From Sediminicola luteus (GTDB taxonomy: Bacteria > Bacteroidota > Bacteroidia > Flavobacteriales > Flavobacteriaceae): 64,000 bases of DNA. The stretch spans positions 787,872 to 851,871 of the forward strand of contig NZ_KZ300476.1 of NCBI RefSeq assembly GCF_002514735.1, given 5' to 3'. The position numbers were made by a program, and so were the translations under genes. Positions 28,643 through 63,105 of the stretch are shown here, piece by piece. The notes beneath the pieces are model-generated. The model ran no database searches and was not told the DNA's origin. It was given only the letters and a program-made list of their open reading frames with translations. The stretch's first letter is position 1. Each line of letters begins with the position of its first letter.

Positions 28643-28913
28643 CTCAATTTAGCTTGAACCACCTTGGTAAAACACACTTATTAATAGCCCTTTAAAAAAA
28701 GCCCGATGTCTTTGCGAATTGTTAAAAAAAAGAGCCTTTCATCGAAAAATGGCCTTGAGGCATGCAGTTCATCGATTTCTTACAATAGCGCAAGAAAAAC
28801 TTCCGTTCTCCCAATCCCAAATCTTAGCATACACGAAACCCACAAAGGGATTACCTACCCCCTTTTCAGGCTTTATCGCTGGTGTTTCATGCTTGCTACA
28901 AAAACATAAGCGT

Positions 28914-29270
28914 GTGAAAAGGAGGCTATGGCTTTTAGCCGCAATGACGGTGATGCTGTTGATTAATTGTTCTGAAGTCCCCGAAAACAACGACCCTATT
29001 CTGGGCACTTGGCATAAGGAACTTTCGGATACAAGTATTCAAAAGCAGGAATGGATCTTTAACGATGTGTACCTAGGTAGATATACCGAATATGGCACTA
29101 AAGGGATTCTGTTTGAAACGGATTTTAAATGGGAGTTGAGCGAAACCGGATATACCTTAAGTTATCCCGGAACCGATAGACCCCCTATTTGGGTAACCTT
29201 AGAATCTTTGGAGTCGGGAAGTACCGCCCTAATGGCCTCGAAAACCATAGTGGCCATCCGATCGAACTGA
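28914..29270 (+). CDS. Small lipoprotein, GTG start
   Basis: Not recognised. The frame is open far upstream, but starting at the GTG at 28914 gives (M)KRRLWLLAAMTVMLLINCSE, a compact lipoprotein signal with Cys at 19. An internal ATG at 28944 would remove the basic n-region. The mature part is about 100 residues: DPILGTWHKELSD, QEWIFNDVYLGRYTEYGTKG, LFETDFKWELSETGYTLSY. This is a short all-beta pattern of the lipocalin-like kind (GTW motif at the first strand), common in Bacteroidota lipoproteins. Divergent from mdh and followed by a strong terminator. Confidence 0.6.
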   Translation: MKRRLWLLAAMTVMLLINCSEVPENNDPILGTWHKELSDTSIQKQEWIFNDVYLGRYTEYGTKGILFETDFKWELSETGYTLSYPGTDRPPIWVTLESLESGSTALMASKTIVAIRSN

Positions 29271-29291: not shown

Positions 29292-29326
29292 AAAAGTCGT
29301 CTGGAACTTCCGGACGACTTTTTTTA
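29292..29326 (+). terminator. Intrinsic terminator
   Basis: AAAGTCGTC pairs with GACGACTTT around a 12-nt region with a further partial pairing, followed by a T7 run. It lies 21 bp past the small lipoprotein gene. Confidence 0.85.
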
Positions 29327-29508
29327 TGCCACAATTTCAAATACAGAACGGAATGGACTGTACTTACTAGATTTATCGTGTCCGCACACTAAGGAGACCG
29401 CCATCCCCTAAAAAATAATACTGTGTTATTTTGACGCAGAAACAATTTTTACTATCTTTTCCCTCGAAAACAAACCCTTTAGGGCCATACTCGAAACATT
29501 CCTGCACT

Positions 29509-30102
29509 ATGAAATTTCACAAATCCACTGCGCTTTTTATCGCACTGCTCCTTTGTACGACCGTTGCTACCGCTCAAGAAACCGAAACTTTGTTCGACGG
29601 CTCCAACTTAGACGCTTGGCAACTGCCTACCGACACCGATCATTGGTCTATAGATAAAGGTGTACTTACCGCCAGAAATGACCCCGAACAAAAGGGATCC
29701 ATTCTATGGACAAAAAAGACCTATACCGATTTTGTGATCGAAACCGATTTTCTTTTCGGGCATGGTCGGGTAGATTCCGGGATATTCATCCGTACCGACC
29801 GCCAACAGATCCAATTGGGTAATTCGGGGTCTAAAAAGCGCGATATGACCGCCTCACCTTATATTCCAGGCAAAGGCTATCCGGTTGAGGCCGTTGGCGT
29901 TGAAAAGTTACTTAAACTGCGCGATTGGAACCATATTAAAATAGAGGCCAGAGGCAAACAATATGAAGTTTGGCTCAATGGTGAACTGGTACTTTCATTC
30001 CATTCCGAAGATGCCATTGAAAAAGGCCCAATAGGCTTACAGCTTCACCCCAAACGCGACATGTGCGTAAGCTTTAAGAATATTACCGTTACCGAACTCT
30101 AA
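29509..30102 (+). CDS. Secreted DUF1080 (3-keto-disaccharide hydrolase domain) protein
   Basis: The ATG at 29509 gives a signal peptide MKFHKSTALFIALLLCTTVA cut near ATAQE; a TTG start 26 codons upstream is less likely. The mature protein (~175 residues) is one DUF1080 domain (PF06439, concanavalin-like jelly roll): ETLFDGSNLDAWQLP, DHWSIDKGVLTARND, GSILWTKKTYTDFVIETDF, DSGIFIRTD, WNHIKIEARGKQYEVWLNG and GPIGLQLH. Members cleave 3-keto-glycosides made by Gfo/Idh/MocA oxidoreductases. Such an oxidoreductase gene follows 37 bp downstream, supporting that role here. The glycan is unknown. Confidence 0.88.
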   Translation: MKFHKSTALFIALLLCTTVATAQETETLFDGSNLDAWQLPTDTDHWSIDKGVLTARNDPEQKGSILWTKKTYTDFVIETDFLFGHGRVDSGIFIRTDRQQIQLGNSGSKKRDMTASPYIPGKGYPVEAVGVEKLLKLRDWNHIKIEARGKQYEVWLNGELVLSFHSEDAIEKGPIGLQLHPKRDMCVSFKNITVTEL

Positions 30103-30139
30103 ACAACCAAAATAATTCACTAAACGATTTATCCACATT

Positions 30140-31516
30140 ATGGAAGACAGAAGAAATTTTATCAAAAAAACCACCTTGGGTGCCACAGGGGTAGCCCTCG
30201 GGGCCACGGCATTCTCGGCCAAATCCTATGGAAATATCCTTGGGGCCAACGACCGTGTCGTACTTGGATCTATAGGTATCCGTGGCAGAGGAAAGGGATT
30301 AATGGATGCCTTTTCTAAAATGTATAGTAACGGAGTCGAGATTAAAACCCTTTGCGATGTAGACTCTTCCCTATTCGGAGAGCGTCTTAAAATCGCAGCG
30401 AACAACCAAAAAGGAAGAAAACCAGGCACCGAAACCGATATGCGTAAAGTTTTCGACGACAAGGATATCGATGCCGTAATTATCGCCACCCCAAATCATT
30501 GGCACGCCCTATCAACTATCTGGGCCTGCCAAGCCGGAAAAGATGTGTATGTAGAGAAACCTAGCTCGCATAATGTCTGGGAAGGTCGTAAAATGATCGA
30601 GGCCGCCCGTAAGTACAACCGTATCGTACAGGTCGGTTTCCAAAACCGCTCTATCAGTAATGTAATGCAGGCCATGGATTTCTTGCACAACGGCGGTATC
30701 GGTGAGGTATATATGGCCAAGGGAACTTGTTACAAACCAAGGGACTCGTTTGGTATTAGCCCAGACACCGCTCCACCGGCCCATCTCGATTATGACAAAT
30801 GGCTAGGCCCGGCGGCTTACCGTGCCTATAATGAAAAACGTGGCCATTATAATTGGCACTGGCATTGGAATACCGGAAACGGTGATACCGGTAACCAAGG
30901 CCCACACCAGTTCGATGTGGCCCGCTGGGGATTGAACAAAAACGAACACCCAATCAAGGTTCAGTCCATGGGCGGAATTTTCGGCATTGACCCAAGGGAA
31001 TGTTCCCAGGAGACCCCCAACACCCAAACCTCGGCCTTTGAATATGCCGATGGTAAAATATTGGAGTTCGAGACCCGTGGCCGTTATACCCCGGGGGAAA
31101 ACAGCCTTCAAAGCAAAATCGGTAATACCTTTTTTGGAACCGAAGGGTATCTCGAATTGAACGGCTCTACCTGGAAAGCCTTTAAAAAACGTGATAAAGA
31201 ACCTTTTGCCGGTTCTGGTATGGCCGAAGGTGCTGCCGTTGGTGGTGATACTTCATTTAGAAAAGCTCCGGATAGTAAAGGTCATTTCGGGAACTTTATA
31301 GATGGGGTGCGTTCCGGTAGCCGTTTTGACCTGAATTGTGATGTGGAAGAAGGCCATATGTCGACCGTATTGCCATTGATCGCCAATATCGCATACCGTT
31401 TGGGGGAAACCTTAAAATTCAATGGGGAGTTCGAACAATTTATCGATAATGAGGCGGCCGATCTAATGCTTACACGTAAGTACCGCTATCCGTATGTGGT
31501 ACCGGAAAATGTGTAA
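30140..31516 (+). CDS. Tat-exported Gfo/Idh/MocA oxidoreductase
   Basis: A 458-residue NAD(P)-dependent sugar oxidoreductase expected in the periplasm. The N-terminus EDRRNFIKKTTLGATGVALG is a twin-arginine signal (RRNFIKK). The Rossmann part starts at VVLGSIGIRGRGKGLM and includes DIDAVIIATPNHWHA and the EKP motif in VYVEKPSSHNV. The C-terminal Gfo/Idh domain has GDTGNQGPHQFDVARWGL. Exported members with an intact cofactor site usually hold a tightly bound nucleotide. Next to DUF1080 it is likely to oxidise a glycoside at C3 (inference from known pairs). It follows DUF1080 by 37 bp, so they are probably co-transcribed. Confidence 0.9.
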   Translation: MEDRRNFIKKTTLGATGVALGATAFSAKSYGNILGANDRVVLGSIGIRGRGKGLMDAFSKMYSNGVEIKTLCDVDSSLFGERLKIAANNQKGRKPGTETDMRKVFDDKDIDAVIIATPNHWHALSTIWACQAGKDVYVEKPSSHNVWEGRKMIEAARKYNRIVQVGFQNRSISNVMQAMDFLHNGGIGEVYMAKGTCYKPRDSFGISPDTAPPAHLDYDKWLGPAAYRAYNEKRGHYNWHWHWNTGNGDTGNQGPHQFDVARWGLNKNEHPIKVQSMGGIFGIDPRECSQETPNTQTSAFEYADGKILEFETRGRYTPGENSLQSKIGNTFFGTEGYLELNGSTWKAFKKRDKEPFAGSGMAEGAAVGGDTSFRKAPDSKGHFGNFIDGVRSGSRFDLNCDVEEGHMSTVLPLIANIAYRLGETLKFNGEFEQFIDNEAADLMLTRKYRYPYVVPENV

Positions 31517-31620
31517 CACAAACAACTTTGAGTCCACAATCATGGTATTTTCTCAGTCTCTAAATGCAAATACCTGATAAAAAAGACTAAAGCAAATCAG
31601 TTAGTAACGTGATTTTTATA

Positions 31621-31661
31621 AACGGGAGTTGTTCCTAAACGGTTTCAGCTCCCGTTCTTTA
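31621..31661 (+). terminator. Terminator or leader hairpin before the sulfatase
   Basis: AACGGGAG pairs with CTCCCGTT across an 18-20-nt loop, then CTTT. It lies 105 bp after the oxidoreductase stop and only 10 bp before the sulfatase ATG. It could end the upstream transcript or be part of the sulfatase leader. Confidence 0.5.
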
Positions 31662-31670
31662 ATACGATTT

Positions 31671-33062
31671 ATGAAAAATAATCTTCTCCTATTAGCCCTA
31701 CTTCTAACACTCGGCCTTGGTGCCCAAAACCAAAAAACGGAACGACCAAATATTATCTTGGTCATGGTAGACGATCTGGGTTACGGTGATTTGGGTAGCT
31801 ACGGACAAAAAGTGATCCAAACGCCCCATCTGGATCAAATGGCCCTCGAAGGGCTTCGTTTTACCCAGTTTTATGCAGGATCGCCGGTTTGTGCCCCTTC
31901 GCGATCCGTGCTAATGACCGGACTCCATACCGGACATACGACAGTTAGGGGAAATACAGGTATAGGTGGCGTACGCGGACTTGGCGGAGCCAAGGGTCGT
32001 ATTCCGTTAAAAGCGGACGACCTTACCCTAGCCCAAATTTTAAAACAACAAGGCTACCATACGGCCATGACCGGGAAATGGGGTCTGGGCGAACCCAACA
32101 CTACTGGCCTGCCCAATGACCATGGTTTTGACGATTGGTTCGGTTTTTTAAACCAACGTAGGGCCCATCATCACTATACCGATTATTTATGGCGAAACCG
32201 AGAGCGGGTAGATATTCCCCACAGCAAAAAACATGACCCCGCCTATTATTCCCATAATCTTTTTACCGGCTTTGCCTTAGATTATTTGGCCAAAAGGAAA
32301 AAAGACGGAAAACCCTTTTTCTTGTATGTTCCCTATTTGTTACCGCATGCGGAATACGAAATCCCTGAAATACACCCAGACTATGTCAACGAAGATTGGA
32401 CCTATGACGAAAAAGTACATGCTTCCATGGTACGCTTAATCGATTCGGATATGGGGAAAATCCGTAAAAAACTGGAAGCGCTGGGCATGACCGAAAACAC
32501 CTTGATCCTATTTACCTCCGACAATGGCGCCGCATTACGCTGGGAGGGTCGTTTTGATAGTTCGGGGCCACTAAAAGGCCGGAAACGCGATGTGTACGAA
32601 GGAGGTATCCGCACTCCCCTATTGGCCGTGATGCCGGGCACCGTTCCCCAGGGAAAGGTCTCGGAATTCGTGGGCTACTTCCCCGACATTTTTCCCACCC
32701 TGGCCGAAATGGCAGGTGCCAAGGCCCCAAAAGGCTTGGATGGTATTCCGTTTACCTCAATTTTAGAAGGGAAAGATTTAAAACCTATAAAAAGGTCTCT
32801 GTATTGGGAGTTCCACGAACAAGGAGGCAAACAGGCCGTACGTTTGGGCAAATGGAAAGGGGTACGATTAGAAATTGACAAAAAAGGCTTTCATTCAGAC
32901 CTTGAACTCTACGATCTAGAAGCAGACTCTTCGGAAACCCATAATTTGGCCACAACCCATCTGAAAATGGTAAAACGTATACTGAAAATCATGAAAAAGG
33001 AACACCGGCTATCCACATCCTTTCCGTATCCGCATGAAAAAACTAAATTGAACACAAACTAG
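31671..33062 (+). CDS. Secreted family S1 sulfatase
   Basis: The ATG at 31671 gives a signal peptide (KNNLLLLALLLTLGLGAQ, cut near residue 19). The 463-residue protein is a formylglycine sulfatase: PNIILVMVDDLGYGDLG with metal Asp34 and Asp35, active-site VCAPSRSVLMTG with Cys74 to be converted to formylglycine, GKWGLGE, HADY-like region, and FTSDNGAA with the second metal-binding Asp-Asn. It removes sulfate esters from glycans or other substrates in the periplasm. The maturase is not in the window. The next oxidoreductase gene begins 4 bp after its stop, so the two are an operon. Confidence 0.93.
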   Translation: MKNNLLLLALLLTLGLGAQNQKTERPNIILVMVDDLGYGDLGSYGQKVIQTPHLDQMALEGLRFTQFYAGSPVCAPSRSVLMTGLHTGHTTVRGNTGIGGVRGLGGAKGRIPLKADDLTLAQILKQQGYHTAMTGKWGLGEPNTTGLPNDHGFDDWFGFLNQRRAHHHYTDYLWRNRERVDIPHSKKHDPAYYSHNLFTGFALDYLAKRKKDGKPFFLYVPYLLPHAEYEIPEIHPDYVNEDWTYDEKVHASMVRLIDSDMGKIRKKLEALGMTENTLILFTSDNGAALRWEGRFDSSGPLKGRKRDVYEGGIRTPLLAVMPGTVPQGKVSEFVGYFPDIFPTLAEMAGAKAPKGLDGIPFTSILEGKDLKPIKRSLYWEFHEQGGKQAVRLGKWKGVRLEIDKKGFHSDLELYDLEADSSETHNLATTHLKMVKRILKIMKKEHRLSTSFPYPHEKTKLNTN

Positions 33063-33066
33063 CGGC

Positions 33067-34104
33067 ATGACAAAAGAAACAAACCTCGGCTTTGGCGTTA
33101 TCGGACTCGGCAGTATCGCCAACCATCATATACAAGCCATTTTACATAGTTCGAACGCCCATTTGGTCGCTGTCTGCAGTCGAAATGAAGACAAACTGGC
33201 TCAGGCCGAAAAAGAGTTTGGCGTCTCCACCTATACCGACTTTACCGAAATGATGCAGCATCCGGAACTAGATGCGGTATGTATCTGTACCCCAAGCGGG
33301 TTCCACCTAGAACCCACTTTGACTGCCGCCCAGGCCGGGAAACATGTATTCGTAGAAAAACCCTTAGAGGTTAACTTGGATCGAAGCCTGCAAATGATCA
33401 CCGCCTGCGAAACTGCGGGTGTTCAATTGGAATGTGTTTTCCAAAACCGCTTCCAACCCGATTTCCTTAAAATGAAAAAAGCCCTAAACCAGGGTCAATT
33501 GGGCAAACTGGTTTTGGGCAATGCCTATATCAAATGGTTCCGCGACCAAGCCTACTACGACAGTACCGATTGGCGGGGTACCTTTAAGGGAGATGGCGGG
33601 GCAGCTTTGATAAACCAGTCGATACATACCATTGATTTGCTGCTTCAGCTCATGGGGCCCGTAAAGTCAGTTATAGGTAAAATTGCCACCGTGGCCCATG
33701 ATATAGAAGGCGAAGACTTGGGGTTAGGTATTCTAGAGTTTGAAAACGGGGCCTTGGGTACCATTGAAGGCAGTACGGCCATACACCAAGGCTATCCCGA
33801 GAAATTGGAAATACACGGCACCCTAGGCAACCTTATTTTAGAAGGTGGTCGCATTACCCAATGGCAAATCAAAGGACAAGAAGGAAACAGTAACGAAGCC
33901 CCAACCGAAACCGATTCTGGTAGCAGCGACCCCATGGCTATTGGCTATGGGTTACACCAAAAACAGTTGCAAGGTTTTGTAGACAGTATTTTAGATGGCT
34001 CAAAAGCTGAAGTAGACGGCCAGTCGGCCCTAGCTTCCATAAGGGTAATCCGAGCTATTTATGAATCGTCACAAAGCGGGAAACGGGTGGTTTTGGCCCC
34101 TTGA
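33067..34104 (+). CDS. Cytoplasmic Gfo/Idh/MocA oxidoreductase
   Basis: A 345-residue NAD(P)-dependent oxidoreductase without signal peptide, so it probably works in the cytosol on a sugar or inositol derivative. It has GFGVIGLGSIANHHIQAI at the N-terminus (Rossmann GxGxxA type), DAVCICTPSGFH, HVFVEKPLEV (the EKP Lys near 98), and GGAALINQSIHTIDLLLQLM with the His/Asp pair of the catalytic site. The start is 4 bp after the sulfatase stop. It differs from the Tat-exported homologue at 30140, so the island holds one enzyme on each side of the inner membrane. Confidence 0.92.
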   Translation: MTKETNLGFGVIGLGSIANHHIQAILHSSNAHLVAVCSRNEDKLAQAEKEFGVSTYTDFTEMMQHPELDAVCICTPSGFHLEPTLTAAQAGKHVFVEKPLEVNLDRSLQMITACETAGVQLECVFQNRFQPDFLKMKKALNQGQLGKLVLGNAYIKWFRDQAYYDSTDWRGTFKGDGGAALINQSIHTIDLLLQLMGPVKSVIGKIATVAHDIEGEDLGLGILEFENGALGTIEGSTAIHQGYPEKLEIHGTLGNLILEGGRITQWQIKGQEGNSNEAPTETDSGSSDPMAIGYGLHQKQLQGFVDSILDGSKAEVDGQSALASIRVIRAIYESSQSGKRVVLAP

Positions 34105-34212: not shown

Positions 34213-34252
34213 GGGTATAAAAAAACGCCCTCGAGGGGCGTTTTTTCTTTCT
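34213..34252. terminator. Bidirectional terminator between the oxidoreductase and gyrB
   Basis: AAAAAACGCCC and GGGCGTTTTTT form a long stem with a TCGAG-type loop (34219-34246) with A/T runs on both sides, so it can serve both convergent genes. It lies 14 bp from the gyrB stop. Confidence 0.88.
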
Positions 34253-36413: not shown

Positions 36414-37277
36414 TTAGCGTTTTGCCTTCATTTCCAAATAAGCTAAAAGTGCCTTAGGAAGATCCGTTTGGATAACATTGGCCCGCGGGTATCGTTCCAA
36501 TTGGGAAAATCCCTGGCCTGGATCCGCTTTTTCGGCCCTATCGATGTCGCCCAAACTGTTCAACCACAAGCGTATCCCACGGGCCCGCATCTTTTGGGCA
36601 AATGGTTCTGAGTACACCTTTTTGTCGATATGAAGTATGGTTTGCGGAAAAGTACGCATGAGCCTTCGGGCCTGCCGACGTGTATATACCCTGGGCATGA
36701 TCTTTATCGCCGGGTACATTTGGTGCAGGGCCAAGGCTTCCTTTCTCTCGTACAGAAAGAAAAGCACTTGGCTTTCCATCTCCAGACCAACGATCTCTTT
36801 GGCCGCTTCTAAAATGGCTGGCATGCCTTCCAACTTAAAATCGACATCAATCAAAATAGAGTCCCGCGCGGCATTCAAGGCCTGGGCAAAGGTGGGGATC
36901 TTTTCTTGGGTGGGTCGCCCTTTATGTGTTAAGCGTAGCTGTTGTAACTGTGCCCAACTGTGTTCGGCTACCAAACCACTTCCGGTGGTGGTACGATCCA
37001 AACTCTTATCGTGCATCATTACCAAAACCCCATCACTGGTGGCCCTGATATCCAATTCCACGATATCGGCGCCCAAGCGGATGGCCTCCTGAATGGCTGC
37101 CAGCGAATTTTCGGGATGGTATTCGTGAGCCGCCCTATGGGCTGCTACCAGTACTTTTTCCGGTTTATGCGTAAAATCGTAAAGTATACTATCCGCCCGG
37201 GTCTGTTGCGACCAAATATATGAGGATAGAAAAATAAAAAAGAGCACGGCACCCTTCCCTGCGACATTCATATTCAT
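36414..37277 (-). CDS. Glycerophosphodiester phosphodiesterase-like protein
   Basis: A 287-residue secreted member of the GDPD family, which releases glycerol 3-phosphate and an alcohol from deacylated phospholipids. A signal peptide covers the first ~23 residues (GKGAVLFFIFLSSYIWSQ). Family residues are clear: AAHRAAHEYHPENSLAAI (catalytic His and the E-N pair), ADIVELDIRATSDGVLVMMHD (metal-binding Glu and Asp plus second catalytic His), DRTTTGSG, then DVDFKLEG. The C-terminal ligands look less typical: LHIDKKVYSEPFA and IRLWLNSLGD. Start could be the first or third codon (both ATG). Single gene. Confidence 0.88.
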   Translation of the reverse strand: MNMNVAGKGAVLFFIFLSSYIWSQQTRADSILYDFTHKPEKVLVAAHRAAHEYHPENSLAAIQEAIRLGADIVELDIRATSDGVLVMMHDKSLDRTTTGSGLVAEHSWAQLQQLRLTHKGRPTQEKIPTFAQALNAARDSILIDVDFKLEGMPAILEAAKEIVGLEMESQVLFFLYERKEALALHQMYPAIKIMPRVYTRRQARRLMRTFPQTILHIDKKVYSEPFAQKMRARGIRLWLNSLGDIDRAEKADPGQGFSQLERYPRANVIQTDLPKALLAYLEMKAKR

Positions 37278-59047: not shown

Positions 59048-59321
59048 GCATTCCAATTAAAGATAAAAGACCGCTTCGCTCATTGATATTAGAACAAAGA
59101 CAAAGAGGTTTATCCGAAAATCATGTGTTTTCACCTTGATCGGACTCGGCCATCCCGCCCAATGATCATAAAGCCTTCTAAGTAAGACTCCAAAGCATTA
59201 GCGATACCTTTCAAATTAAAAACCCTAAACACTATAGCCTCAAAAAGCTATGTTTTACCCCAAACCAGTGAAATAAGGTTTCCAAAACTTTTTCGTTTCT
59301 TTGAGGGCAAAACAACCGACC

Positions 59322-60074
59322 ATGAATATTTTGGGAATCGATATAGGGGGCAGTGGTATGAAGGGCGCCTTGGTAGATATTATTACAGGCGAACGTGTTT
59401 CTGACCGCTTTAGGGTACCCACGCCCGAAACCCGTAATCCCGAAGGCATGGCTGGCGCTATAAAAGAAATTGTTGACCATTTCGATTACCATGGCCCCGT
59501 GGGTTGTGGTTTTCCAACCTCCTTGAAAAAAGGGGTCTGCAACTCGGCAGGCAACCTAGACCCAAGCTGGGTGGGCCAAAATGTAGCCGAGGTGTTCAAT
59601 GCGGCCACAGGCTTACCTTTTACCGTGGTTAACGATGCCGATGCGGCCGCCTTTGCCGAAATTCGCTATGGTGCCGGACTCGATGTAGATGGCTTGGTGG
59701 TTATGATAACCATTGGAACCGGATTGGGTAGCGGGGTATTTTGGAACGGTGAATTGATACCCAATTTTGAATTGGGACAATTACCTTACAAGGAATATTC
59801 GAAAATAGAGCTCTGGGCCGCAGGATCGGCCAAAGACCGCGAAGGCCTCAGCTATAAAAAATGGGTGAAACGCTTCAATAAATTTTTACAGTATATAGAC
59901 TTGATCGTATCTCCTGATCTTATTATCGTAGGGGGTGGCGCCTCTAAAGATTGGGCCAAGTTTGAAGCCGGGATTACCATTCCTACCCCGGTGGTACCTG
60001 CCCAACTAAAGAACCATGCCGGAATTATCGGTGCCGCGGCCATGTGCCCTCCTGGTGAGTGGCCTGTGAAGTAA
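59322..60074 (+). CDS. ROK-family kinase, polyphosphate glucokinase-like
   Basis: A 250-residue sugar kinase. The start ATG at 59322 gives MNILGIDIGGSGMKGALVD with the phosphate-1 loop; a TTG seven codons earlier is less likely. Further motifs: VGCGFPTSLKKGVCNSAGNL, VVNDADAAAFAE (catalytic Asp), TIGTGLGSGVFWNG, and PDLIIVGGGASKDW. The LGQLPYKEYSKIE segment with no ROK zinc CXCG cluster is typical of polyphosphate/ATP glucokinases (PpgK). It would feed glucose into metabolism, using polyphosphate or ATP. The sulfatase genes downstream are 119 bp away and may not be co-transcribed. Confidence 0.85.
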   Translation: MNILGIDIGGSGMKGALVDIITGERVSDRFRVPTPETRNPEGMAGAIKEIVDHFDYHGPVGCGFPTSLKKGVCNSAGNLDPSWVGQNVAEVFNAATGLPFTVVNDADAAAFAEIRYGAGLDVDGLVVMITIGTGLGSGVFWNGELIPNFELGQLPYKEYSKIELWAAGSAKDREGLSYKKWVKRFNKFLQYIDLIVSPDLIIVGGGASKDWAKFEAGITIPTPVVPAQLKNHAGIIGAAAMCPPGEWPVK

Positions 60075-60192: not shown

Positions 60193-61638
60193 ATGAACCA
60201 ATTTGCTTCCAGAATACTATCTAGTTGTTTAACACTCCTTTTTGTCTTAGGGCTTTATAGTCAAAATTCCGAACGACCCAATGTCATCTTTATCATGGTC
60301 GATGATATGGCCTGGGCCGATGTGACCCAAGTTGCGGCACAAAACGGATTTTACGAATTGCCCAATATGCTGCAAATGGCCCAAGAGGGTATGACTTTAA
60401 ACCGTTTCTATCCTGGCGGTCCCAATTGCGCGCCAAGTAGGGCCTGTTTGGTCAGTGGTATGTATACCCCGCGTACCAAAATCTACCAACCCAGCGGTTG
60501 GGCCAAAGGTCCAGCAAATGCCATGCGATTTGCAGCCCCCATGAAATCGAACGGGAAAAATAACTTTGGGATGGACATCCGCACCCAACTCGACCCCAAA
60601 ACCATTTCCATTGCCGAGATGCTGGAAAATGCCGGATATGCCACCGCCCGCATCGGCAAATGGCATTTGGGTCCGAATAAGCAAGGCTTTGGCCTATCGA
60701 CCCAAGACGGGGTAGACTCCTCCGAAAAAAGATATTATAACGATACTACGGCCACAGACCGTATGGTACAAGGTGCTTTCGATTTTATGGAAAAGCATCA
60801 AAAGCAACCCTTTTTCCTGTATTTCCCCCTTTGGGAAGTACATACCCCCATTGTGGCCAAACCCCATTTAGTAGCCAAATACAAAGCCAAATGGCAGCAA
60901 TGGCCCGACAAATCGATCCGTTGGAACCCTACCTATGCAGCCATGCTCGAAGAAGCCGATACGGCCATTGGGGCTTTACGGCAAAAAATCACCCAATTGG
61001 GACTCGCCAGCAACACCTTGGTCGTACTGACCTCCGACAATGGTGGGGCCGGACACATTACCTCAAACGCCCCTTTACGCGGAGCCAAGGGAAGTCTATA
61101 CGAAGGAGGCATCCGAACCTTTGCCGCAGCAGTTTGGCCATCGGTTATAAGACCGGGTAGCCAAAGCGACGATCCGATCACCGGGGTGGACCTAATGCCG
61201 AGTCTGGCCGAATTAGCTGGTGCCGAATTACCTAACACACAACCCATAGACGGACAGTCTTTCGTGTCCACCCTAAGAGGTGAAAAAAGAGAGGAGCGGG
61301 CCATTTTCTGGCATTACCCCCTTTATCTTGAAGGAAAGGATACCAGCAAACAAGGTTGGCCATCGGACCGTGTTTTACCCATTTATGGTTCAAAAGAATT
61401 ACTATGGCGCGCCGTACCCGCCAGTGCGATCATGAAAGGCGACTGGAAGTTGATCTATTACCATGAATACGGTTCGTATGAACTATTCCATATCGGAAAA
61501 GACCCCAACGAGACCCAAGAACTTTCGAAGAGCAAGCCCAAACTGGCAAAAAAGCTAAACCAAGAACTTCAGCATTGGTTAAAAACGACCGATGCCGATA
61601 TTCCTTCCGTAACCAACCCTCATTTTAAATCCCGATAA
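60193..61638 (+). CDS. Secreted S1 sulfatase, first of a pair
   Basis: A 481-residue formylglycine sulfatase. A signal peptide (cut near 23, LYSQNS) is followed by PNVIFIMVDDMAWADV with Asp37-Asp38. Active site NCAPSRACLVSGMYTPRT has the modified Cys79, then GKWHLGPN and LTSDNGGAGH. The C-terminal part ends with the sub-domain FHIGKDPNETQELS. It differs from the sulfatase at 31671 in the flanks of the active site (GGPNCAPSRA versus GSPVCAPSRS), so the substrate is probably different. The next sulfatase starts 12 bp after its stop; the two form an operon. Confidence 0.93.
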   Translation: MNQFASRILSSCLTLLFVLGLYSQNSERPNVIFIMVDDMAWADVTQVAAQNGFYELPNMLQMAQEGMTLNRFYPGGPNCAPSRACLVSGMYTPRTKIYQPSGWAKGPANAMRFAAPMKSNGKNNFGMDIRTQLDPKTISIAEMLENAGYATARIGKWHLGPNKQGFGLSTQDGVDSSEKRYYNDTTATDRMVQGAFDFMEKHQKQPFFLYFPLWEVHTPIVAKPHLVAKYKAKWQQWPDKSIRWNPTYAAMLEEADTAIGALRQKITQLGLASNTLVVLTSDNGGAGHITSNAPLRGAKGSLYEGGIRTFAAAVWPSVIRPGSQSDDPITGVDLMPSLAELAGAELPNTQPIDGQSFVSTLRGEKREERAIFWHYPLYLEGKDTSKQGWPSDRVLPIYGSKELLWRAVPASAIMKGDWKLIYYHEYGSYELFHIGKDPNETQELSKSKPKLAKKLNQELQHWLKTTDADIPSVTNPHFKSR

Positions 61639-61650
61639 GCCGTCCGCACT

Positions 61651-63105
61651 ATGAAATATGTTATTACCCTTGCTGTATTCTTGAGTACCCTCTCCATTTC
61701 CCAGGCCCAAGAAAAAGCTGAAAGACCCAATGTACTTTGGATCTATTTGGAAGATGTCAGTGGCTGGTTCAGTAGCTATGGCGACACCCTGATCCAAACC
61801 CCGAATATGGATGCCTTGGCACAATCGGGTATTCGGTTCGACCGCTATTATGCCACGGCCGGGGTATGTTCCCCCTCCAGATCTGCCGTGGTCACCGGGA
61901 TGATGCAAACCAGTATAGGGGCCCATCACCATAGATCGGCCCGATCGAATTTCCGAGGGTTACAATATGACGAATACGATAAAAATGAACTGCCCGACCA
62001 TGTGGTTCCCCTACCTATCCGTTTTAAACAGGCCGGTTATTGGACCTTTAACGATGGTAATAAAGATGACTATAACTTTGAATGGGATGCCAAAGCCTTT
62101 TACGACTATTACAACCCAAAACCATGGGGGCTTCAAAAATTCATAAACGGGGAATGTCTGGCTGGGAATACCGACGGCAAACCCTTTTTCGGGCAGATTC
62201 AGTTAGGTGGTGGTAAACTTAGAAATAGGGCTCCAAAAATAATTGACCCCAGTACCGTTAGCGTTCCACCTTATTATCCAGATGTTGCTGAGGTCAGAAA
62301 AGAAATCGCCCATCATTACGATTGCCTTCTGGAAACCGACAAACAAGTGGGTCAAATTATTGACTACCTCAAAGAAAATGGACTCTATGAGAATACGGTA
62401 ATCTTTATGTTCAGCGACCATGGCATGAAACTGCACCGTCATAAACAATTCCTATACGAAGGCGGTATCCGTTTGCCATTCGTCTTAAGTGGCCCAGGTA
62501 TTAATGGGCAACAAATCAACAGCGATTTGATCAGTGGCATTGATATCAGTGCAACCTCATTGGCCGTAGCGGGTATTGGCATTCCGGCAAGTATGGAAGG
62601 CCGCGATATTTTAAGTGCTACATACCAAGAAAGAACCCATGTTATCGCGGCCCGCGACCGCTGCGACGAGACCATAGATAAAATTAGGGCCGTTATAACC
62701 CCTAAGTACAAATACCTTTTAAACTATTACCCCGAACGCCCCTATATGCAACCGAGCTATAAAGACCCTTGGCCAGTAAGTAAAAAATTCAGGGCCATGA
62801 TGGCCGCCGGGGAAATGAATACCACCCAATTGTTGTTCTTCGGTCCAACCAAAGCCCCGGAGGAACTATACGATCTCGAAAATGACCCCCATGAGATACA
62901 CAATCTGGCCCAAGACCCCAACTACAAAAACGAACTGGAGCAACACAGAAAGCTTTTGTTCCAATGGATCGCCGAAACAGGGGATCAAGGTCAAATACCA
63001 GAATCGGACCTGGCCTTAAAATGTGTTATGGAAAGGCGCGGGGCCCATAAATGTATAGCCCCGGAATACGATAGGGTAAAAGCCAGCATGGATTCTGAAA
63101 AATAA
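61651..63105 (+). CDS. Secreted S1 sulfatase, second of a pair
   Basis: A 484-residue sulfatase with a signal peptide ending SQAQE (about 20). The active site GVCSPSRSAVVTGM has Cys73 followed by Ser, the C-S-P-S-R variant. The first metal motif reads YLEDVSGWF, so the usual Asp-Asp pair is Glu-Asp. Downstream are MQTSIGAHHHRS and FMFSDHGMKLHRH. These features resemble the group that includes N-sulfoglucosamine sulfohydrolase-like proteins; N- versus O-sulfatase activity cannot be settled from sequence. The C-terminal LYDLENDPHEIHNL is usual. Co-transcribed with the sulfatase upstream; converges with the YgjV gene. Confidence 0.92.
   Translation: MKYVITLAVFLSTLSISQAQEKAERPNVLWIYLEDVSGWFSSYGDTLIQTPNMDALAQSGIRFDRYYATAGVCSPSRSAVVTGMMQTSIGAHHHRSARSNFRGLQYDEYDKNELPDHVVPLPIRFKQAGYWTFNDGNKDDYNFEWDAKAFYDYYNPKPWGLQKFINGECLAGNTDGKPFFGQIQLGGGKLRNRAPKIIDPSTVSVPPYYPDVAEVRKEIAHHYDCLLETDKQVGQIIDYLKENGLYENTVIFMFSDHGMKLHRHKQFLYEGGIRLPFVLSGPGINGQQINSDLISGIDISATSLAVAGIGIPASMEGRDILSATYQERTHVIAARDRCDETIDKIRAVITPKYKYLLNYYPERPYMQPSYKDPWPVSKKFRAMMAAGEMNTTQLLFFGPTKAPEELYDLENDPHEIHNLAQDPNYKNELEQHRKLLFQWIAETGDQGQIPESDLALKCVMERRGAHKCIAPEYDRVKASMDSEK

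Follow-up and report, generated by a model that had tools for sequence, protein, structure and literature searches.

A four-gene island of Sediminicola luteus that may join DUF1080/oxidoreductase and sulfatase/oxidoreductase modules

Introduction

Glycosidases that work by oxidation and elimination are reportedly the subject of a 2024 paper in Nature. Such a route runs through oxidation, elimination, hydration and reduction, and in Agrobacterium a Gfo oxidoreductase does the last reduction, an assignment that the source calls preliminary (PMC10628242). Another source describes BT2157 as a hydrolase of 3-ketotrehalose and suggests that a DUF1080 protein in the periplasm deals with 3'-ketolactose (PMC9007349). 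Here we describe an island at positions 29509-34104 of a 64,000 nt stretch of Sediminicola luteus (GCF_002514735.1, contig NZ_KZ300476.1; hereafter the window), in which a DUF1080 gene and an oxidoreductase gene of this general kind are followed by a sulfatase gene and a second oxidoreductase gene.

We read these four genes as a composite catabolic island that joins two modules, both working on one substrate. The reading draws on gene content, relatives, predicted fold and neighbourhoods, and it is tentative; we put its probability at roughly 0.37.

Gene Content of the Island

The four genes are the following.

29509..30102, + strand: DUF1080 protein of a divergent clade, predicted to be exported; PF06439 (3-keto-disaccharide hydrolase family), 109.1 bits against a cut-off of 26.8; hydrophobic leader
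30140..31516, + strand: Gfo/Idh/MocA oxidoreductase of the twin-arginine translocation type (Tat-Gfo), a distant relative of glycoside 3-dehydrogenases; assigned by Pfam; twin-arginine motif DRRNFIKK
31671..33062, + strand: S1 sulfatase, predicted to be exported, nearest solved relatives in S1_20; PF00884, 190.4 bits; hydrophobic leader; CAPSR
33067..34104, + strand: cytosolic Gfo/Idh/MocA oxidoreductase (Gfo2); assigned by Pfam; neither twin-arginine nor hydrophobic leader

All are open reading frames on one strand, placed where a preliminary description made from the DNA letters had put them, and the frames, Pfam scores and leaders agree with the four families that it named. Export leaders and the twin-arginine motif were judged by eye from the sequence rather than with a signal predictor. 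Both Tat-Gfo and Gfo2 carry the Rossmann and C-terminal Pfam domains of the Gfo/Idh/MocA family above cut-off, and the sulfatase combines its PF00884 score with the C-x-P-S-R motif of formylglycine sulfatases of family S1. The intergenic gaps are 37, 154 and 4 bases in gene order, the last being that between the sulfatase and Gfo2. The preliminary description also held that the locus has no SusC/SusD pair and no glycoside hydrolase. As far as checked, this is so: none of the listed open reading frames of the window matches the SusC or SusD references, and a Pfam scan of 17 window proteins, which did not extend to the remaining window genes, showed no glycoside hydrolase.

The DUF1080 and Tat-Gfo Pair

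The DUF1080 protein was searched against 149 genomes of the family, that of the window included. Matches at E 1e-30 or better occur in 10 of the 149, and their neighbourhoods were then read. In 8 of the 9 other genomes carrying this DUF1080 clade, a gene of the DUF6807 cluster (Pfam-confirmed in 2 of the 8) is adjacent or fused to the DUF1080 gene, and in 6 of those 8 a Tat-Gfo gene adjoins it as well. A LacI-type regulator is added in G018, G050, G075 and G037, three of which also have SusD and SusC within the stretch retrieved (names read from the sequence). Outside the family, Tat-Gfo has relatives with 79% identity in G487 and G507, both genomes of one other family. In the former a DUF1080-DUF6807 fusion lies directly before the Tat-Gfo gene, which is the window order minus DUF6807; in the latter no DUF1080 gene stands beside it. 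Since 79% identity is high across families, it suggests lateral transfer. The preliminary description had seen in the DUF1080 protein and the Tat-exported oxidoreductase a likeness to the 3-keto-glycoside route, and the recurrence in family genomes and in G487 supports it to this extent: the two form a recurring module, usually accompanied in relatives by DUF6807.

The two domains are fused in both orders, as DUF1080-DUF6807 in G487 (L159:7555-9147, by similarity) and as DUF6807-DUF1080 in G004 (L027:8701-10281, by Pfam). These fusions and the presence in 8 of 9 genomes hint that DUF6807 may share the chemistry of the pair, and the repeated association gives this unassigned family a testable role. 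In the genome of the window DUF6807 occurs once, some 600 kb from the island, and its surroundings include sulfatase and Gfo genes and a GH92-like gene (read from the sequence). That region of about 35 kb (L043, L158; G000:C2:185000-224700) holds two-domain DUF1080 genes, Gfo genes, a sulfatase gene and the sole DUF6807 gene, and it also holds genes like UxaC, KdgK, KDPG aldolase, a tripartite ATP-independent periplasmic (TRAP) transporter and GH92, several of these names being read from the sequence.

Of the 14 DUF1080 loci in the genome of the window, 4 have a PF01408 gene no more than 3 kb away, against 0.32 expected under random placement, a test in which the sizes of contigs C6 and C7 were guessed. 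The linkage of DUF1080 to Gfo genes is therefore above chance in this genome. PF01408 genes lie within 3 kb of a sulfatase in 4 of 19 cases against 0.74 expected, two of the four being those of the island itself.

An AlphaFold2 model of the DUF1080 protein built from alignment A4 reached a predicted local distance difference test score (pLDDT) of 95.7; a single-sequence fold, with pLDDT 31.8, was discarded. The model matches 9fbe, 8rr2 and 8tda at Z 17.8-19.5 over 165 of 176 residues, and 3osd was also matched; lectins and glucanases reach Z of about 15-17. By their PDB titles, 8rr2 and 9fbe are 3-keto-glycoside eliminase/hydratases, and 8tda and 8v31 are 3-keto-2-hydroxy-glucal hydratases. 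Judged from its context, the protein likely works in 3-keto chemistry.

The Sulfatase and Gfo2 Pair

Compared with solved enzymes, the sulfatase profile scores 492 bits to BT1622, 473 to BT1636 and 296 to the next, about 180 bits lower. His166 of the sulfatase, invariant in the 6 sequences of alignment A2, aligns with a His in 7an1 and 7ana that may be the reported axial-O4-recognising His of S1_20. BT1622 and BT1636 are listed as S1_20 enzymes with specificity 3S-Gal/3S-GalNAc (PMC10154620), and a His that reads axial O4 is described as well conserved in S1_20 (PMC10154612). The sulfatase of the island is a putative S1_20-like 3-O-sulfatase. Two more S1 sulfatases stand in tandem in the window, at 60193-61638 and 61651-63105, after a ROK-family gene (59301-60074).

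Among the 149 family genomes, the best matches to the sulfatase are in G020 (50%) and G004 (48%). A Gfo2 relative directly adjoins the sulfatase relative in G004 and lies 4.5 kb away in G020. In Marinifilum caeruleilacunae (L097) a close sulfatase relative is 6 kb from a Gfo2 relative, a locus that was found through the Gfo search and so is not independent. The tree clade of the sulfatase has seven further members at six loci, one long-branched row being omitted; in the stretches retrieved around these, no gene had Gfo2 as its best match. The family-wide Gfo2 and sulfatase searches and a third of the kind scored up to 11 to 14 candidates per genome. A class-wide sulfatase search (395 genomes, E 1e-118) returned the window's own genome only; it and the search that gave the Tat-Gfo relatives scored up to 4 candidates per genome, and genomes rich in sulfatases or Gfo proteins may hide more.

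A sulfatase is paired with a cytosolic Gfo protein in two other genera and in a Marinifilum as well, each time in a sulfatase/GH92 cluster and with a Gfo protein of another lineage. The nearest relative of the window Gfo2 is in a Cytophagales metagenome-assembled genome (60%). The approximately unbiased (AU) test rejects, at p 1e-5, a single clade that unites the window Gfo2 with its counterparts in the sulfatase clusters, long branches being present in the tree. It therefore seems that sulfatase and Gfo genes were paired on more than one occasion. The window sulfatase itself was grouped with the Gfo2-linked trio in a quick tree, with a Shimodaira-Hasegawa-like approximate likelihood ratio (SH-aLRT) of 93. 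Among solved proteins, Gfo2 is related to DgpA and to a glucuronide-3-dehydrogenase, among others. In what is a conserved neighbourhood, a Gfo2 relative stands beside genes like those of resistance-nodulation-division (RND) efflux and TolC in Kriegella, Pseudozobellia, G018 and Zobellia (L031, L033, L035, L037; genus names via identical proteins).

The Four Families Together

The preliminary description proposed looking for co-occurrence of the four families. It was found, in part. At the thresholds used, 2 of the 148 other family genomes have all four in one sulfatase-rich region, of about 12 kb in G004 and about 22 kb in G020; the DUF1080 gene there is of the island's clade and lies some 7.5 kb from the sulfatase in G004 and some 20 kb in G020. 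Both regions hold GH92, and the G004 cluster also has genes like KDPG aldolase and of the mannitol-dehydrogenase family (UxaB-like). Neither these 148 genomes nor 80 Gfo2 loci of named genomes showed a second compact island of the four genes; among the genomes searched, the compact four-gene island is seen only in the genome of the window. The 80 loci, some of them incomplete, were compared with three sulfatase references: a match resembling a sulfatase turned up in six, a fragment in one case, and the whole four-family set in none.

Genomic Setting and Transcription Signals

The island adjoins the conserved gene mdh and stands ahead of gyrB. It is missing beside mdh in 18 of 18 relatives read. 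In 16 of these gyrB is at most two genes from mdh and in 2 it was not seen there, while secDF is at most two genes from mdh on the opposite side in all 18. None of the 60 relatives searched is a same-genus genome. Just upstream of the island is a small gene (28719-29270) whose relatives stand between gyrB and mdh in 3 of the 18; it is therefore probably part of the old gene order, the island having been inserted between it and gyrB. Beyond gyrB, at window 36414-37277, is a gene for a protein of the glycerophosphodiester phosphodiesterase family, which matches DUF4996 below threshold.

Four further features lie around or within the island.

29292..29322, + strand: hairpin with a T run behind it, resembling a terminator and separating the island from a lipoprotein-like gene upstream; folding energy -19.7 kcal/mol, z -6.6; absent from the terminator scan list
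29430..29460, + strand: promoter-like site TTTG-N19-TATCTTTT, one mismatch to TTTG/TANNTTTG; the scan expects 0.07 such sites per 180 window bases
31621..31656, + strand: stable hairpin between the two gene pairs that may serve as a terminator or have a regulatory role; folding energy -19.0 kcal/mol, z -4.1; absent from the terminator scan list
34220..34246, + strand: terminator-like stem of 12 pairs between the island and the convergent gyrB; terminator scan and RNA fold

TTTG/TANNTTTG is a Bacteroidota promoter consensus. It has no exact occurrence within the island, and one near match was found. Promoter and terminator scans of the island region gave counts at chance level, and the island may be one operon or two.

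Proposed Pathway and Alternatives

If both pairs act on one substrate, the S1_20-like sulfatase would begin by removing a 3-O-sulfate and freeing the C3 hydroxyl. Tat-Gfo would then oxidise C3 of the glycoside sugar in the periplasm, the DUF1080 protein would act on the 3-keto product by elimination and/or hydration to give an aglycone and a 3-keto sugar, and the 3-keto sugar, once imported, would be reduced by the cytosolic Gfo2 at the expense of NAD(P)H. The 3-O position, the oxidation at C3, the order of the steps, the reductase role and the one shared substrate are what we infer here, as are the order of steps and the marine glycoside substrate that the preliminary description had offered. 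To desulfate and then oxidise at C3 is chemically sensible, given that the nearest solved sulfatases are 3-O-sulfatases. Desulfation could gate oxidation because a 3-O-sulfate blocks the very hydroxyl that a 3-dehydrogenase needs. In its fullest form, which we consider unlikely, this would be a sulfatase-gated 3-keto pathway, with the 3-O-sulfate as a protecting group of C3, a DUF1080 protein whose active site has been remodelled and which cleaves non-hydrolytically, and Gfo2 closing the redox cycle. Such a pathway would open sulfated glycosides without a glycoside hydrolase or a SusCD pair at the locus. If the two pairs do share a substrate, desulfation is directly coupled to 3-keto chemistry, and sulfatases that lack a glycoside hydrolase gain a plausible partner.

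A number of observations weigh against this composite reading, and there are alternatives to it. The island may instead consist of two independent gene pairs, each for a glycoside of its own, that have only their place of insertion between mdh and gyrB in common, a doubtful possibility but one to be taken seriously. The preliminary description joined the sulfatase and the cytosolic oxidoreductase to the 3-keto route, which the proximity of sulfatase relatives to cytosolic Gfo genes favours in part; the hairpin and the 154-base gap, however, divide the DUF1080/Tat-Gfo pair from the sulfatase/Gfo2 pair. The two pairs also differ in their relatives and neighbours elsewhere, and the gap between mdh and gyrB carries varied cargo in relatives, including a different sulfatase in G002. 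DUF1080 and sulfatase genes are not generally linked in the genome of the window: 1 of 14 DUF1080 loci, that of the island, has a sulfatase within 6 kb, against 1.05 expected. No sulfatase match appears in 74 of the 80 Gfo2 loci, and in a careful tree the grouping of the window sulfatase with the Gfo2-linked trio falls to a support of 71/47. On the other side, all four families do lie within one sulfatase cluster in G004 and again in G020. Moreover, the 7 genomes with a Gfo2 relative tend to have the DUF1080 clade, found in 9: they overlap in 5 of the 148 genomes against 0.4 expected (hypergeometric 4.6e-6, a statistic that ignores lifestyle and kinship). The two genes are close together in 2 of these 5 only; in G129, G011 and G018 they are on different contigs or more than 1 Mb apart, and Gfo2 there sits beside RND/TolC-like genes.

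Other alternatives concern single members of the composite island. Its DUF1080 protein could be a carbohydrate-binding or altered accessory protein that works with Tat-Gfo, and elsewhere with DUF6807, rather than a 3-keto hydratase. The 3-keto role that the preliminary description gave it is favoured by fold and context, but the two acidic residues kept in characterised 3-keto hydratases of the BT2157 type are missing: the clade has QIQIG where BT2157 has EYQVLD, with Gln and Gly in place of the two. One DUF1080 paralog of the window's genome likewise has Gln for Glu. The clade profile matches BT2157-type enzymes at 22.6-26.1 bits only, the fold is also near CBM66 and lectins, and the fusions with DUF6807 come in both orders. 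Yet the top fold matches are DUF1080 proteins that include the 3-keto eliminase/hydratases, and Asp112 and His180 are invariant in the 11 aligned members of the clade. We find an accessory protein unlikely, and that of a BT2157-type hydratase is a predicted role which the fold favours and the missing acidic residues weaken. Tat-Gfo, for its part, reaches 146.9 bits to BT_2158_fam (NF058561, glycoside 3-dehydrogenase), where the cut-off is 750, and DUF6807, the customary partner of the pair, is missing from the island. Gfo2 might be a dehydrogenase of the inositol or nucleotide-sugar type with no part in 3-keto metabolism, which is somewhat unlikely. Its best NCBIfam match is inositol 2-dehydrogenase (TIGR04380), although at 166.4 bits it does not reach the cut-off of 355. 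Its best solved relatives are 3q2k/3q2i, which are UDP-GlcNAcA 3-dehydrogenases, and its Zobellia-type relatives adjoin RND/TolC-like genes. Several of the 13 Gfo2 loci read gene by gene, however, have uronate-type, NagA/NagB-like, TRAP-transporter-like or Tat-Gfo genes (by sequence or similarity), and in the window Gfo2 begins directly behind the sulfatase.

Comparison with Known Systems

The 3-keto-glycoside route of BT2157 in Bacteroides thetaiotaomicron likewise has DUF1080 beside a Gfo/Idh/MocA dehydrogenase, and the fold of the island protein matches 3osd, which is BT2157, as well as 8tda, 8rr2 and 9fbe. The island differs from it in the divergent DUF1080 clade and in the added sulfatase and cytosolic Gfo protein, neither of which is known to be part of the operon BT2156-BT2160. 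In the lactose route of Caulobacter, LacABC with DUF1080, C3 is likewise oxidised in the periplasm before a DUF1080 protein that carries a signal peptide comes into play; there, membrane-bound LacABC rather than a Tat-Gfo does the oxidation, and the accessible part of the source mentions no sulfatase (PMC9007349). The S1_20 sulfatases BT1636 (3S-Gal) and BT1622 (3S-Gal/GalNAc) (PMC10154612, PMC10154620) are by a wide margin the nearest solved relatives of the island sulfatase, and both have a His that aligns with its His166. Those two are tied to mucin-type glycans, whereas the partners of the island sulfatase are Gfo enzymes and DUF1080, not glycoside hydrolases.

In the sulfatase-GH92-Gfo clusters of G004 (L027/L028), G020 (L029/L030) and Marinifilum caeruleilacunae (L097), a sulfatase closely related to that of the island occurs together with DUF6807 and a relative of Gfo2, and the clusters of G004 and G020 share the DUF1080 clade and Tat-Gfo with the island as well. 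They differ in being large, with several sulfatases and GH92, and in having a Gfo2 of another lineage. A literature search, with subscription papers mostly outside it, gave two papers in which both DUF1080 and sulfatase occur, on unrelated subjects to judge by their titles and the openings of their abstracts, and DUF6807 turned up as a passing mention in one paper. The single parts of the island are known from these systems; as far as we searched, their compact combination and the idea of 3-O gating are new.

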